Below are positions 12,719-21,610 of a stretch of DNA of 39,356 nucleotides, one piece after another. The stretch spans positions 1-39,356 of the forward strand of contig JAPYTK010000012.1 of the NCBI GenBank assembly GCA_029941785.1, given 5' to 3'. How positions within the stretch are numbered: position 1 is the first letter of the stretch; the number at the start of each line of letters is the position of its first letter. This DNA is from Polyangiaceae bacterium. GTDB taxonomy: Bacteria; Myxococcota_A; Polyangia; Polyangiales; Polyangiaceae. A program made the translations under genes and the position numbers. Below the pieces are notes generated by a model. It was not told where the DNA came from. It made no database searches and saw only the letters and a program-made list of their open reading frames with translations.

Positions 12719-13390
12719 TCAGCCGCAATCCAGCTCTGCGGTGCCGCCGGCGACATCGATCAAGCGCATCAATAAGCGTCGATCCGACGGGCGGAGGCTG
12801 GCTTGCTTCTCGATACAAAAGCACAAGTATGCGGCGGCAGGTTCAGGATCGTCGAGGGCGAGGAAGGCCTCGGCGAGACGCAGATGATTGCTCGGTTCGC
12901 TGGGATGAGCGTCGCGTTGTTCTTCGAGCAGTTCGATTCCCACCTCCGAGTCACCGTGGGCGACGAGAGATGCGGGCGCCAAGACGTACAGCGTGCCGAG
13001 TACGCGTCGCGCATGCCCGCCGCGATAGCCTGGATCGAGTTCCATGCTCAAGCGTGCCCATTTCTCGACTTGCCTGACCAAGGTCACCGCGGTCACCCCG
13101 CGGATCTGTGCGACTCGCCCGGCGAGGACAGCCCTCGCAAGGGCGTAGCCTGGTGTGTCGTCTTTCCACTGACGCACTGCATCATATGCACCCTCGCGAT
13201 CTTGTTTCGTCGCCTTGCGGCGATCGATCATGCGCTCGAGTGCATCCATCAAGCCCACGGCGTCGTGCTTCACGGCGGCGGCACGCAAGGGCGGCCGCAA
13301 GTGGGCCACGAAGCAGCCGCTGAGCGAGTTGCCGAGCACGATGGCGATCGTCAGCACCAGCAGCCGTGCGCCGAGCAAGCGTTCGTTCAG
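12719..13390 (-). CDS. TatT/BstC-like TPR lipoprotein
   Basis: A 223-residue protein from a proposed CTG start at 13390. That start gives a textbook lipoprotein signal: basic n-region, hydrophobic core and LSGC lipobox with Cys at residue 26. The CTG overlaps the upstream stop as CTGA, suggesting translational coupling. An alternative ATG at 13468 would place 52 residues before the lipobox Cys. The mature part is helical and contains the family-like stretch GYRGGHARRVLGTLY followed by repeat helices, as in TRAP-transporter T-component (TatT) TPR lipoproteins. In Methylococcus capsulatus a protein of this type (BstC) is the outer-membrane partner for sterol transport. The gene sits between a PhnD-like binding protein and the RND exporter, the same three-part set. 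Family call is moderate; function is inferred. Confidence 0.7.
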   Translation of the reverse strand: MNERLLGARLLVLTIAIVLGNSLSGCFVAHLRPPLRAAAVKHDAVGLMDALERMIDRRKATKQDREGAYDAVRQWKDDTPGYALARAVLAGRVAQIRGVTAVTLVRQVEKWARLSMELDPGYRGGHARRVLGTLYVLAPASLVAHGDSEVGIELLEEQRDAHPSEPSNHLRLAEAFLALDDPEPAAAYLCFCIEKQASLRPSDRRLLMRLIDVAGGTAELDCG

Positions 13391-14199
13391 CGACGGTACG
13401 CGCTCACGACGGCCGCAAAAGCGGCGTCGCTTGCAGGTTTGATCGACAGGATTCCGACCTTGTCGCATTTCGCTTGGCCCCGGCCATCGCATACAGAACT
13501 CAGATTGCTCTTCAACTTCGCACGGGCAGGCCCGCTCGCACCAGAAAACGCCACGACGGCCATCGGTGGGAGGCGCTTGGACGCCCACACCGACCGGATA
13601 CCCTGTGTGCCCTCGATGTGGGAAAGTTCTGCGAGCTGAGCGTCGTCGATGAGCGCGCACACGGCCTTGCCGCGCGACACCTTCTTGATGGTCTGAACTG
13701 GGCGCCTCGTCTTGACCACTTCAAAATCCGTGAGCTTGAAGGCGCCATTGGCGATGACTTTTTCGACGAAGCTGCGGTCGGCCAAATGGTTGCTGGCCAA
13801 GGTCTTTCCTTTGCAATCTTCGACGCTGCCGGCATCCTTGCTGATCAGGTGATACTGGCGGCCGCCGGCCCGGGCGACCTCGGCCGTTCCGACGACGGTC
13901 AAGCGATGTGGTTTCTTCATGGCCAGAAAAGCACCGAGGGACAAGATGCCGAACTGCGGGCCCTTCTTCTTGATGTACTTCTCGGCACTCTTGCGACGCG
14001 TGATGTACTTGCCCTTGGCCTGACCCCAACCGTTCTTCTTGGCGAACAGTTGGATCAGCTCGTTCACGTAAGGTTGTGCCTGCGCGGCGCTGCCAAGGCC
14101 GTGTTCGCGGAGCACGATGAGGTGCACCGTCTGCGCCGCATGGCTAGGAGCGGCGAGCGCGATGACCGAAAACAAGAAAGCGAAGACCAGATGTTTCAA
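13387..14199 (-). CDS. PhnD-like periplasmic substrate-binding protein, BstB-like
   Basis: A 270-residue periplasmic protein starting at TTG 14199. GGAGG seven bases upstream decides the start and gives a clean signal peptide ending around SHA-AQ. The mature sequence follows the PhnD/phosphonate-type type II binding fold: first strand VHLIVLRE, a central segment GILSLGAFLA, then the hinge region with KGKTLAS and a Phe/Val-rich second lobe, and the AVCALIDD segment typical of this family. No ABC permease or ATPase is nearby, so it is unlikely to feed an ABC importer. Instead it is followed by a TatT-like lipoprotein (4-bp overlap) and an RND exporter, as in the BstB/BstC/BstA set. Ligand is inferred to be a lipid such as a sterol or hopanoid. 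Confidence 0.75.
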   Translation of the reverse strand: MKHLVFAFLFSVIALAAPSHAAQTVHLIVLREHGLGSAAQAQPYVNELIQLFAKKNGWGQAKGKYITRRKSAEKYIKKKGPQFGILSLGAFLAMKKPHRLTVVGTAEVARAGGRQYHLISKDAGSVEDCKGKTLASNHLADRSFVEKVIANGAFKLTDFEVVKTRRPVQTIKKVSRGKAVCALIDDAQLAELSHIEGTQGIRSVWASKRLPPMAVVAFSGASGPARAKLKSNLSSVCDGRGQAKCDKVGILSIKPASDAAFAAVVSAYRR

Positions 14200-14380
14200 A
14201 GGGATCCCTCCGATGCTTTGACGAAGCCCCCAGCGAAACGATGCAAGTGTTCTTGCGGCTCGCTGGCCTGACCCACGACTTACCATGGGATGACCAGAAG
14301 CGCAGTAGTTCAAGGTGTTTGAAGCACAATCAGGGCGCTCGCTTGCAGGTGGTCCATCGCGAGGTTAGGCACGAGGGCGA
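14200..14380. promoter_or_regulatory. Divergent intergenic region between the Bst-like cluster and the amidase
   Basis: 181 bp separate the two divergent starts. It holds a short inverted repeat TTCAA-N5-TTGAA at 14309-14323, about 110 bp upstream of the binding-protein start and 58 bp upstream of the amidase start, which could be an operator. The ribosome sites are GGAGG for the minus gene and GAGGG for the plus gene. I see no convincing -35/-10 pair. Confidence 0.35.
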
Positions 14381-16301: not shown

Positions 16302-17621
16302 ATGGATGCAGAGCAAATCGTCGAGTTGTGTAAACGCCACACCGTCTTTTCCTGGGCGGCCCAGGGCAAGATCAACCCCCTCACGGTCGATCGCGCCAAG
16401 GGGATCTATTTCTGGGACAAGAGCGGCAAGCGGTACATCGATTTCAACTCGCAGTTGATGTGCGTCAACATTGGACACAACCATCCCAAGGTGGTCGCGG
16501 CGATCAAGGCCCAGGCCGACAAGTTGGTCTTCTCGTGGCCTGGTTCGGCGACGGAGCCGCGGGCCCGGCTCGGCAAACTGCTGAGCGAGATTTGCCCCGC
16601 TGACATCGACAAGTTCTTCTTCACCAACGGTGGTGCGGAGTGCAACGAGGCGGCGATCAAGATCGCCCGCCTGTACACCGGTCGGCACAAGATCCTCAGC
16701 TACTATCGGTCGTATCACGGCGGTACGCATGGGGCGATGCAGCTCACGGGCGATCCGCGCCGCTGGGCGACGGAGCCGGGGGCCCCCGGTTTCGTCAAGG
16801 TGATGAACCCGTACCCCTACCGCTATCGTTTTGGCAGCAGTGACGAGGAGATCACCGAGAACAATATTCGCTACCTATCGGAGGTCATCGACTACGAAGG
16901 TCCGCAGAACATCGCCGCCATGTTCATCGAGCCCGTACTCGGTACGAACGGGATCCAGGCGCCGCCCAAGGGTTATCTCGAGGCCTTGCGTGATCTGCTG
17001 CACAGCCACGGCATTTTACTGGTCGCCGATGAGGTGATGGCGGGCTTTGGTCGAACCGGGAAGTGGTTCAGTCATCAACACGCCGACGTCGTGCCGGATC
17101 TCATGTGCATGGCCAAAGGTTTGACCTCGGCGCACTTGCCTCTTGGTGCCCTGGGAATGCGGGCGAAGATCGCGCAGCATTTTGATGACAATGTGTTCTC
17201 TGCTGGCTTGACCTATAGCTCCCACGCGATGAGCCTCGCGGCGGGGATCGCGGCGGTCGAGGCGACGAGGGACGAGGGCTACGTCGACAACGCCGCGCGG
17301 ATGGAAGAGGTGATGCGAACGCATATGCGGGAGCTCGCTGCGAAGCACCCGAGCGTCGGGAGTTATCGGGCCACCGGTCTGTTCGGCGCGCTCGAGCTCC
17401 AGAAGAATGCCGCGGGCGATCCACTCAGTGGGTACAACGAGACGCATCCCGCGGTCCCGAAGCTCATTCGGGCGCTTCTCGAAAAGGGCCTGTTCACCCT
17501 CTCGCATTGGAACATGATCTTCTGCAATCCGCCGCTGTGCATCAACGAAGAGCAGCTTGGGGAATCTTTCAAACTGCTCGACGACTGCCTCGCGATCACC
17601 GACGACGTGTACGAGGGCTGA
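16302..17621 (+). CDS. Class III pyridoxal-phosphate aminotransferase
   Basis: A 439-residue fold-type I omega-aminotransferase. The family layout is clear: substrate-side N-terminus, NIGHNHPKV, the phosphate-binding TNGGAECNEAA segment, the cofactor-binding LLVADEVMAGFGRTG with its Asp, and PLP Lys272 in CMAKGLTS. It transfers an amino group from an amine or omega-amino acid, such as taurine, beta-alanine or a polyamine, to a keto acid. Taurine-pyruvate-like enzymes are the nearest impression, but substrate is unproven. The start is set by GGAG seven bases before the ATG at 16302; the frame extends 25 codons upstream but without a ribosome site. It is preceded by a good promoter and probably forms its own transcript. 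Confidence 0.9.
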   Translation: MDAEQIVELCKRHTVFSWAAQGKINPLTVDRAKGIYFWDKSGKRYIDFNSQLMCVNIGHNHPKVVAAIKAQADKLVFSWPGSATEPRARLGKLLSEICPADIDKFFFTNGGAECNEAAIKIARLYTGRHKILSYYRSYHGGTHGAMQLTGDPRRWATEPGAPGFVKVMNPYPYRYRFGSSDEEITENNIRYLSEVIDYEGPQNIAAMFIEPVLGTNGIQAPPKGYLEALRDLLHSHGILLVADEVMAGFGRTGKWFSHQHADVVPDLMCMAKGLTSAHLPLGALGMRAKIAQHFDDNVFSAGLTYSSHAMSLAAGIAAVEATRDEGYVDNAARMEEVMRTHMRELAAKHPSVGSYRATGLFGALELQKNAAGDPLSGYNETHPAVPKLIRALLEKGLFTLSHWNMIFCNPPLCINEEQLGESFKLLDDCLAITDDVYEG

Positions 17622-17689: not shown

Positions 17690-17736
17690 TGTTGCATGTG
17701 GCAACAACCGTGGCGCGCGCGCGTTGCCTTTGGCAA
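17690..17736 (+). promoter_or_regulatory. Two enhancer-like palindromes upstream of a sigma-54 promoter
   Basis: Two sites share the form TTGC-N5-GCAA: 17692-17704 (extended to TGTTGC-N5-GCAACA, 17690-17706) and 17724-17736. Their centres are 32 bp apart, about three helical turns, and lie roughly 107 and 75 bp upstream of the predicted start site. This is the usual placement for dimers of a sigma-54 activator (bacterial enhancer-binding protein). No such activator gene is in the window. Confidence 0.7.
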
Positions 17737-17778
17737 TCTTGAGGTCTTTCTGCGCCCGGGATAACGGCCCCTTAGCTC

Positions 17779-17794
17779 TGGCACGTGCTTTGCT
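17779..17794 (+). promoter_or_regulatory. Sigma-54 (-24/-12) promoter of the lipoprotein gene
   Basis: TGGCAC-N6-TTGCT with the invariant GG (17780-17781) and GC (17792-17793) separated by exactly 10 bp, a near-perfect RpoN element. Transcription should start near 17805, about 55 nt before the ATG at 17860. Transcription would require an ATP-dependent enhancer-binding protein; two candidate binding sites lie just upstream. Confidence 0.8.
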
Positions 17795-17859
17795 CTGCTT
17801 GGTCACCATACATCACCCCAAGCGCCTCATTCTTGGCGCGTTCACCGATGGAGGTACCC

Positions 17860-18963
17860 ATGCGTCATTCGATTACAACATTCGCTCTCATGTTCGCCCT
17901 TGGCTGCTCTGCTCAAGTTGGCGGCGACACCGACTCCGCTGCAGGCGCTGGAGGCGCTGGCGCGCAAGCCACCGCTGGCAGCGGTGGCTCTGACTCGGCA
18001 AGCTCGGCTGCGGGCCAGCAGCCTACTGACGAGGCGCCAGCGTTCATCGCGACGATGACCCATCTCGAAAGCGGATGGAATTATGATGGCCCCGACGGCA
18101 ACGCCAAATTTGACATAGACGTGCTCAAGATCCGTACAGGGATGGACATCTTCAGTGCGGCGGGCGGGATCATGACGGTCGAGTCGGAGGTCCCGTTTTC
18201 GACCAAGGCGATAGCGGTGAACAGTCCGATCTTCACCGATCTTCTTGCTGCGAACTTCGGCGTCGGTAGCCATTGCGACATCAAGTCAACCCTCGACATC
18301 AGTGACGAGGCGATGGCGGAGGAGTTTCGTCTGCGCAAGGAACCAATGGACCTTCTCATCGGTGCGGACAACAACCTGGGCTGCTCCGGCGGGGCATCGA
18401 AGAGTGACTGGGTCTTGGGGGCGCACCTCGCGGGTTTCAAGTACATCAATGGCATCGTCGGAATACACTATCTGTCGATGGACGAAGACGCGCGGCCCGA
18501 AGGTTGGACCGACGATTCGATCCTCAACGGCGGTCACTTTCATGACGTCTCACCCGTCGATCTCACCCACCGAATGCATCCTTTCATGATGGCGGATGCG
18601 ACGGATTTTGAGCCCGACGCGGACGGAGTGATTTTGGCCAATCCAGGAGAGCTCGGCTCGCTACCAAACTTCGCCGAGTTGGAAAAAGGACAGAGCTGTT
18701 CCAAGGGCTGTGCGCTCACGAGCGAAGATGTCGACGTCGCCATGGCGAAGATCGAAGAGAGCTTGGCCGTGCGGGATGCCGGAAGGGTGTTCAAGGTCGA
18801 TCTGTATCTGCCGCTGATGCTGTTCACCGAAGCGAACCGAGCCGTGCTCGAGAGCTTCATCGAGCAAGTCAACACGAAGTTCGTCGAGACGGGACGTCTG
18901 CAGTGGGGCAGCCAGCGGGACGTCTACGAAGCGTACGTTGCCTACAACGCGACCGCGCCTTGA
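17860..18963 (+). CDS. Secreted lipoprotein with polysaccharide-deacetylase-like core (tentative)
   Basis: A 367-residue lipoprotein: short signal peptide ending in the ALGC lipobox (Cys near residue 16), a Gly/Ala/Ser-rich linker of about 45 residues, then a globular domain. GGAGG five bases upstream fixes the ATG at 17860; the open frame runs further upstream over the promoter. The core has GVGSHCDI, an acidic DVLKIRTGMDIF strand and IGADNNLGCSGG, a pattern loosely like NodB/polysaccharide-deacetylase barrels, but the metal triad is not clearly recognisable and I do not assign a reaction. It is the only gene here behind a sigma-54 promoter, so it is probably condition-specific, for example developmental or starvation-linked. 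It ends 5 bp from the convergent TetR gene. Confidence 0.75.
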   Translation: MRHSITTFALMFALGCSAQVGGDTDSAAGAGGAGAQATAGSGGSDSASSAAGQQPTDEAPAFIATMTHLESGWNYDGPDGNAKFDIDVLKIRTGMDIFSAAGGIMTVESEVPFSTKAIAVNSPIFTDLLAANFGVGSHCDIKSTLDISDEAMAEEFRLRKEPMDLLIGADNNLGCSGGASKSDWVLGAHLAGFKYINGIVGIHYLSMDEDARPEGWTDDSILNGGHFHDVSPVDLTHRMHPFMMADATDFEPDADGVILANPGELGSLPNFAELEKGQSCSKGCALTSEDVDVAMAKIEESLAVRDAGRVFKVDLYLPLMLFTEANRAVLESFIEQVNTKFVETGRLQWGSQRDVYEAYVAYNATAP

Positions 18964-18968
18964 GTTCT

Positions 18969-19622
18969 TCAGCTGGGGAGCAGCAAGGCGTGCGCCGCTT
19001 CGCTTAGATGTTTCTCCACCGCCGCGAGCGTGATTTCGTCATGCTCGCGGCGCGATTCGGTTGTGACGCCCAGGAGTTCGTTCATCTCGTCCGGGGGCAG
19101 CAAGGCGTATCGCACGATGAGAAGACTGCAACTTCGTAAGGCCAAGCGCAGAGCCAAAGGATCCTTTCCGGTCGCGTCGCCGAGCCAGCTGCTCGTCGCG
19201 TCGAGAAAAGGAAGCAAGAAGTCTCCTCGTCGCTGGCCGTGTGCCTGGTGACCATCGATCGCGTCACGGGTTGTCATGCGCACCGCCGACAGATGCTGCA
19301 AACAGAAGCGAAAACTCGTTTGCACGATGCGCGTGATGAGCTCGCGGAGATCCAGGTCGGCTTGGACGACGGCGTCACGCGCGATCTCGCCCAGCTCGTC
19401 TTGCAAGGTCGCAAGCTCGGCGTACATGGCCTCGACGACGGCCTCGCGCAGCTCGGCCTTGCTCCCGAAGTAGTGGTGTACCGTGGCTTGGCTTACTTTT
19501 GCGGCGCGCGCGATGTCCCGCATGGACGAGCCGTCGGATCCTCGATCCGAGAAAAGTTGGCTCGCGGCTGTCAGGACACGGTGACGGGTTTGCGTGGCGT
19601 TTGCGTCGGTGGGTCGGGCCAT
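18969..19622 (-). CDS. TetR-family transcriptional regulator
   Basis: A 217-residue regulator with an N-terminal helix-turn-helix (about residues 13-60, including DIARAAKVSQATVHHYFGSKAELREAV-type TetR signature features) and a helical ligand-binding domain. It starts within the 3' end of the sterol-desaturase-family gene, overlapping it by 52 bp in another frame on the same strand, so the two are co-transcribed and probably translationally coupled. The operon begins next to a perfect 24-bp palindrome (20583-20606), the most likely binding site; autoregulation of the operon is therefore inferred. The inducer is unknown but could be a lipid substrate or product of the neighbouring enzyme. Confidence 0.9.
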   Translation of the reverse strand: MARPTDANATQTRHRVLTAASQLFSDRGSDGSSMRDIARAAKVSQATVHHYFGSKAELREAVVEAMYAELATLQDELGEIARDAVVQADLDLRELITRIVQTSFRFCLQHLSAVRMTTRDAIDGHQAHGQRRGDFLLPFLDATSSWLGDATGKDPLALRLALRSCSLLIVRYALLPPDEMNELLGVTTESRREHDEITLAAVEKHLSEAAHALLLPS

Positions 19623-20606: not shown

Positions 20607-20674
20607 GCAAGAGGGCCAGCGCCTGATCCGTGCTTTTCTCGTCACATTCGCCAGCTGATTCGCGATGAGGGGAT

Positions 20675-21610
20675 ATGAATTCACTATGGACGCCGTTGAT
20701 TTTGGCGTGCTGCTTGCTCGGCTGCACTCCCGCCGAACCTACCCATCTGATGGCCAAGGGGCCGGGTGTTCGCCCGCCCGTCCTGCAGCGCGCGATCCCC
20801 GAACCCCTGCGCGGAAGGCCGCACCCCGCCCGCAGCACAGACTACGCGAAACACCTCCGCCTGCTTCGCCAGCGTTTGCCCAACGGTTTCACGGTGGTTC
20901 TCGAGCCTCCTTTCGTCGTGATCGGCGACGAGTCGCCCGCGCGGGTGCGTCAGCGCGCCGCCGGCACGGTCCGGTGGGCGGTCAAGCGGCTGAAGCGCGC
21001 CTACTTCCCCGACGATCCGAAACACATCCTCGATATCTGGCTCTTCAAAGATGGGCGCAGCTATCGGGAGCATGCGAAGCGTCTTTTTGGAGAAATGCCC
21101 GATACCCCTTATGGCTACTATTCTTCCTCGGATCGGGCCTTGGTCATGAACATCTCGACCGGGGGCGGCACCCTCGTGCACGAGATCGTGCATCCTTTCA
21201 TGGAGGCGAACTTTCCGTCGTGTCCAGCTTGGTTCAACGAAGGGCTCGGCTCCTTGTACGAACAATCGGCCAGTCGCGGGCAGCAGATCATTGGACTCAC
21301 GAATTGGCGTTTGGCTGGTCTGCAGCGCGCGATTCGTGCCGCTAGGCTGCCGTCATTCGAGCAGCTGACGCGCACGAGCAGCCGTGCCTTTTACGATCGG
21401 GATCCGGGGACCAACTATGCCCAAGCACGTTATCTGCTCTACTACTTGCAGGAGCGTGGTCTCCTGCGGCGCTACTATCGCGTCTATCATGCGCAAAGGC
21501 GCCGGGACCCTACGGGGTATCAGAGCTTGAGACAGGTCCTTGGCGAGACGGACATGACGCGCTTCCAGAAGCGGTGGGAGCGCTACGTGCTCACGCTGCA
21601 GTTTCCGTGA
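20675..21610 (+). CDS. Lipoprotein with HExxH gluzincin-type metallopeptidase domain
   Basis: A 311-residue protein with a lipoprotein signal (LLGC lipobox, Cys17) and a globular domain with HEIVH at residues 169-173 followed by Glu189 in WFNEG. This HExxH...NEG arrangement is the zinc site of gluzincin/peptidase-MA-like families, so a periplasmic or outer-membrane-attached zinc hydrolase is likely. Substrate unknown. GAGG four bases upstream supports the ATG at 20675. It is divergent from the desaturase/tetR operon and convergent with the DUF1302 barrel gene (12 bp apart). Whether the palindrome at 20583-20606 also affects this gene cannot be told. Confidence 0.8.
   Translation: MNSLWTPLILACCLLGCTPAEPTHLMAKGPGVRPPVLQRAIPEPLRGRPHPARSTDYAKHLRLLRQRLPNGFTVVLEPPFVVIGDESPARVRQRAAGTVRWAVKRLKRAYFPDDPKHILDIWLFKDGRSYREHAKRLFGEMPDTPYGYYSSSDRALVMNISTGGGTLVHEIVHPFMEANFPSCPAWFNEGLGSLYEQSASRGQQIIGLTNWRLAGLQRAIRAARLPSFEQLTRTSSRAFYDRDPGTNYAQARYLLYYLQERGLLRRYYRVYHAQRRRDPTGYQSLRQVLGETDMTRFQKRWERYVLTLQFP

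Follow-up and report, generated by a model that had tools for sequence, protein, structure and literature searches.

A predicted sigma-54 promoter with paired upstream palindromes before a surface-lipoprotein gene in a Polyangiaceae genome

We examined a 39,356-nt stretch of a Polyangiaceae contig, hereafter the window, in which a gene for a predicted lipoprotein is preceded by a sigma-54-type promoter element and two palindromes (Table 1). A class-III aminotransferase gene ends at 17621, upstream of the promoter region, and a TetR-family gene (18969-19622) lies just downstream, convergent to the lipoprotein gene. Because this neighbor is convergent and the next notable plus-strand gene starts only at 20665-20675, the lipoprotein unit is probably monocistronic. 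The N-terminus of the protein (MRHSITTFALMFALGC) is a signal peptide that leads up to the cysteine of a slightly relaxed lipobox, with A rather than L at position -3.

The lipoprotein matched no Pfam or NCBIfam family, a profile search of its family against solved structures returned nothing, and no close relatives were found in GTDB contigs and plasmids. An assignment as a polysaccharide deacetylase (NodB-like) was rejected, as PF01522 was absent above cut-off in the window protein and appeared in two of 14 aligned proteins, at best with E = 0.065. Elsewhere in the window, a periplasmic binding protein (13387-14313) matches the sterol-transporter subunit BstB below the cut-off (E = 8e-27; 94 bits, where 350 are required), and RND/MMPL-like proteins are also encoded.

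Table 1. Coordinates of the features at the lipoprotein locus, in window positions
Feature	Position	Strand	Basis or remark
Distal activator-site palindrome TTGC-ATGTG-GCAA (TTGCATGTGGCAA)	17692..17704	none	Predicted; centre 17698 = -107
Proximal activator-site palindrome TTGC-CTTTG-GCAA (TTGCCTTTGGCAA)	17724..17736	none	Predicted; centre 17730 = -75
Sigma-54 -24/-12 element TGGCACG-TGCT-TTGCT	17779..17794	+	Sequence match
Predicted transcription start (A)	17805	+	Promoter geometry; 12 nt after the C of the -12 element
Ribosome-binding site GGAGG	17850..17854	+	Sequence
367-aa predicted lipoprotein (MRHSITTFALMFALGC...)	17860..18963	+	Signal peptide and lipobox; apparently monocistronic

The -24 half of the promoter element, TGGCAC (17779-17784), is separated by five bases (GTGCT) from TTGCT (17790-17794). 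A sequence-only reading of this DNA had given the spacer as six bases, which is wrong, but its description of the GG/GC spacing as perfect holds by the coordinates: ten bases lie between GG (17780-17781) and GC (17792-17793), which is the canonical distance. All 12 specified positions of the consensus TGGCACG-N4-TTGCW are matched, the seventh base being the consensus G. No good competing sigma-70-like site was found on the plus strand of the promoter region. The predicted 5′ leader was searched for conserved RNA, and none was found. It contains a short inverted repeat, GCGCC-N7-GGCGC (17823-17839), for which Rfam gives no match.

The 6.03-Mb genome encodes RpoN once and has 35 matches to PF00158, of which about 27 are strong sigma-54-activator domains. 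None of these enhancer-binding protein (EBP) matches falls on the contig of the window, suggesting that the activator is unlinked, and in the stretches examined at EBP genes we saw no convincing autoregulatory motif pairs. Exact TGGCACG-N4-TTGCW sites number 10 in this genome compared to 2 for the reversed control, and TGGCAC-N5-TTGCW sites number 16 compared to 8. We then asked how often a lipoprotein start, called with a home-made automatic lipobox test, lies within 220 bp downstream of a site. This was the case for 10 of the 16 correctly spaced sites and, where the spacer was one base longer, for 1 of 22 (Fisher p = 1.5e-4), with some of these own-genome calls being individually weak (e.g., L072 and L013); a stricter lipobox test gave 9/16 and 1/22. 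Among sites from family relatives, a subset chosen for this test, 28 of 107 correctly spaced and 0 of 50 mis-spaced sites precede a lipoprotein (p = 8e-6), and 3.7-3.9% of random positions do so. As the mis-spaced control has nearly equal base composition, the spacing itself matters, which suggests that many of the sites are real promoters and that they favor lipoproteins.

This spacing-dependent link, along with the perfect element, an RpoN accompanied by many activators, and the lack of a sigma-70-like competitor, supports the sigma-54 promoter that had been proposed from the sequence. In the further proposal of a full regulatory region for one lipoprotein, the word "one" is too narrow: sigma-54 promoters before lipoproteins form a group here, and this is one of its members. 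At other sigma-54 promoters of lipoproteins or secreted proteins (L015, L018, and L014), the upstream regions contain repeats with GTGTAC, which may be the site of another activator.

Upstream of the element, the two palindromes have the positions previously described, with centres 32 bp apart, but their arms are longer than had been noted: the distal one extends to TGTTGC-N5-GCAACA (17690-17706) and the proximal one to GTTGC-N5-GCAAT (17723-17737). A spacing of 32 bp corresponds to about three helical turns and would place both sites on one helical face. TTGC-N5-GCAA occurs only at these two places in the window, compared to a chance mean of 0.75 (at least two copies in 18 of 100 shuffles), and a pair of such motifs with 10-30 bp between the copies is found a single time in the genome. 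The palindrome pair by itself is suggestive, not overwhelming. What makes it convincing is that it accompanies a sigma-54 site and that a second promoter, L101, carries a similar pair.

L101 emerged when the 93 sigma-54 sites of this genome, which were allowed up to one mismatch, were scored for GTTGC-N5-GCAAC pairs in the 120-bp segment that stops 20 bp short of each site. The motif used for scoring came from the window pair, and each of its arms had been lengthened by one base before the ranking of L101. The window scored highest (35), L101 second (32), and the third site 27; 60,000 random windows yielded no score as high as 32. Relative to the first base of the -24 element, the L101 palindromes lie at -71 (GTTTCTTTTAGCAAC) and -49 (GTTGCCATTGTCAAC), each with one mismatch in ten arm positions, and those of the window at -81 and -49. 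The proximal distance is therefore equal, and the pairs differ by about one helical turn in spacing, 22 bp (about two turns) at L101 compared to 32 bp in the window. The genome search suggested by the sequence-only reading thus yielded one further promoter, and its two palindromes at the same proximal distance strengthen the earlier idea that TTGC-N5-GCAA is the target of an EBP. From these sequence matches, GTTGC-N5-GCAAC is probably a new activator site, and the same EBP probably activates the L101 gene too.

The L101 gene (L101:1529-2200; G000:C9 near 28,164) starts with an ATG 12 nt past the -12 element, and its reading frame runs through an in-frame TGA to end at TAG. The read-through protein matches AhpC/TSA (E = 2.5e-9) as well as ResA structures, and the TGA falls where a W-C-P-P-C motif has its first Cys. 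Because the thioredoxin-fold match spans the TGA, the product is apparently a ResA/AhpC-TSA-like lipoprotein and a putative selenoprotein, with selenocysteine likely at the TGA. A search of L101 for a selenocysteine insertion element gave no Rfam match and no unusual fold.

The palindromes could bind an ordinary repressor or activator, such as the neighboring TetR protein, at an otherwise real sigma-54 promoter. The TetR-family gene adjoins the lipoprotein gene convergently on its downstream side, and many regulators typically use short palindromes; however, the motif does not occur around the TetR gene itself, the palindromes occupy the far-upstream position expected of EBP sites, and the pair recurs before another sigma-54 promoter. 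We consider this explanation unlikely. We give a somewhat smaller chance to a coincidental pair in GC-rich intergenic DNA, with the EBP acting via other sites or from solution. Among random 160-bp windows of the genome, about 3.2% hold a twin 4+4 palindrome irrespective of its sequence, and none of the 15 other exact sigma-54 sites carries such a twin. The frequency falls to 0.9% when spacer identity of at least 60% is required and to 0.4% when helical phasing is added, and the recurrence at L101, unmatched among the random windows, also speaks against coincidence. That the -24/-12 match is itself accidental and the gene is served by another promoter seems very improbable: the reversed control implies that chance alone would supply about 2 of the 10 exact sites, but this one is intergenic, correctly oriented, placed before a lipoprotein as most true sites here are, and has no good sigma-70-like alternative.

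Judging from its sequence elements, the region before the lipoprotein gene is very probably a genuine sigma-54 promoter that serves this one surface-lipoprotein gene and has a pair of activator-binding sites upstream. The best explanation, to which we assign a probability of roughly 0.78, is an EBP-driven sigma-54 promoter for this lipoprotein, with the L101 gene probably co-activated. RNA polymerase-sigma54 would wait in a closed complex on the -24/-12 element, and dimers of an unlinked EBP would occupy both GTTGC-N5-GCAAC-type palindromes, which are separated by three helical turns, and then assemble. Short DNA looping and ATP hydrolysis by the EBP would open the promoter, giving an mRNA from near 17805 with a leader of about 55 nt, whose translation from the GGAGG Shine-Dalgarno sequence would produce the exported lipoprotein. 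The same EBP would also switch on the ResA/AhpC-TSA-like lipoprotein gene at L101. The sequence itself shows the elements and their spacing, the second pair of sites, the link to lipoproteins, and the RpoN and EBPs of the genome. Beyond the DNA elements, we infer the steps from established sigma-54 biology, and whatever concerns the identity of the EBP, the inducing signal, the looping, the start site, and the function of the lipoprotein belongs to this inferred part.

As a promoter, the region is of a known type, one more classical sigma-54 switch. In Escherichia coli glnAp2, the NtrC sites have a 32-bp spacing. As in the window, a -24/-12 element is combined there with two upstream activator palindromes, whereas GTTGC-N5-GCAAC is not a known NtrC site and the target in the window is a single lipoprotein gene. 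The glnAp2 promoter with its tandem NtrC (NRI) sites serves as a model enhancer (PMC4740811). In Myxococcus xanthus, Nla28 uses tandem half-sites, CT(C/G)CG(C/G)AG, upstream of TGGCACG-N4-TTGC(T/A)-like promoters, and one of its listed targets is the putative lipoprotein MXAN881 (PMC9765219). The Nla28 regulon thus resembles the window in promoter type and tandem EBP sites but differs in half-site. Reading of the upstream region of the window revealed neither an NtrC nor an Nla28 site, the palindromes being GTTGC-N5-GCAAC. The sigma-54 regulome of Desulfovibrio vulgaris has the promoter tGGcacg...tTGCt and inverted-repeat EBP motifs such as yGTCA-N6-TGACr (PMC4641369); a search of the main text of that study for TTGC/GCAA found no such EBP motif, and the word "lipoprotein" is absent from it. 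GTTGC-N5-GCAAC is therefore different from the Nla28 site (PMC9765219) and from the motifs in that main text (PMC4641369).

Across the class, TTGC-N5-GCAA was not enriched before sigma-54 sites (5 of 317 genomes compared to 1 in the control), which weighs against the best explanation. Twin GTTGC-N5-GCAAC motifs sought throughout GTDB came mainly from Streptomyces among the matches listed, and the few sigma-54-like elements downstream were imperfect and unconvincing.

Homologues of the lipoprotein are distant (24-36% identity over long matches) and patchily distributed. Counting its own genome, 13 of 193 gave a hit, several of them only a weak one, and neither of two searched genomes from the same genus had a homologue. 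In one related genus, several homologue copies share a GGCAC[A/G]C-N4-TG[T/A/C]A block before the gene, reading GGCGC in one copy, and the palindrome GTCCACTGGAC is centred about 74 or 84 bp upstream of the GGCAC-like element, or lies about 77 or 87 bp upstream when counted to its GG. The palindrome together with a GGCACRC-N4-TGTA-like block was seen before lipoprotein paralogues at L024, L025, L026, L032, L033, L035, and L037. Because the -12 element is degenerate (TGTA/TGAA), the block is only tentatively, and perhaps, a sigma-54 variant. By their predicted elements, these homologues have an architecture equal to that of the window, with copies displaced by one helical turn and with a different activator motif. 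The shared architecture speaks for the best explanation; the degenerate -12 and the different palindrome speak against it.

Many sigma-54 elements in the family lie unusually close to a start codon. In 108 family genomes (this one and 107 relatives), an ATG begins 11-13 nt past TGGCACG-N4-TTGCW in 49 of 150 cases among the matches listed, compared to about 3 at each other offset, and in the genome of the window an ATG lies at 12-13 nt in 19 of 82 one-mismatch sites. The proteins behind the 11-13-nt sites are mostly secreted or lipoproteins and are mutually different. With +1 ten bases past the element, such sites would have a leader of 1-3 nt, pointing to near-leaderless mRNAs. The lipoprotein gene of the window, with its ATG 65 nt past the element, falls outside this class. 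Our searches of open-licence papers found none on start-codon-fused sigma-54 promoters. We see an even chance of a family-wide sigma-54 regulon of lipoproteins and secreted proteins in which many promoters are start-codon-fused (ATG at about +2 to +4) and near-leaderless, with the window as a leadered member whose GTTGC-N5-GCAAC EBP is shared with a putative thioredoxin-fold selenolipoprotein.

Surface molecules, among them lipoproteins, have been predicted from genomic context to be under sigma-54 control, mainly as regards their biosynthesis (PMC3162934). The promoters described here lie directly before lipoprotein genes, and the bias toward surface lipoproteins agrees with that prediction. 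What began as a single promoter thus becomes evidence that sigma-54 in this lineage largely switches surface lipoproteins, which fits the "bacterial exterior" idea (PMC3162934), and it offers a concrete candidate activator motif with two targets. If confirmed, start-codon-fused sigma-54 promoters would be a case in which leaderless translation is coupled with activator-gated transcription.
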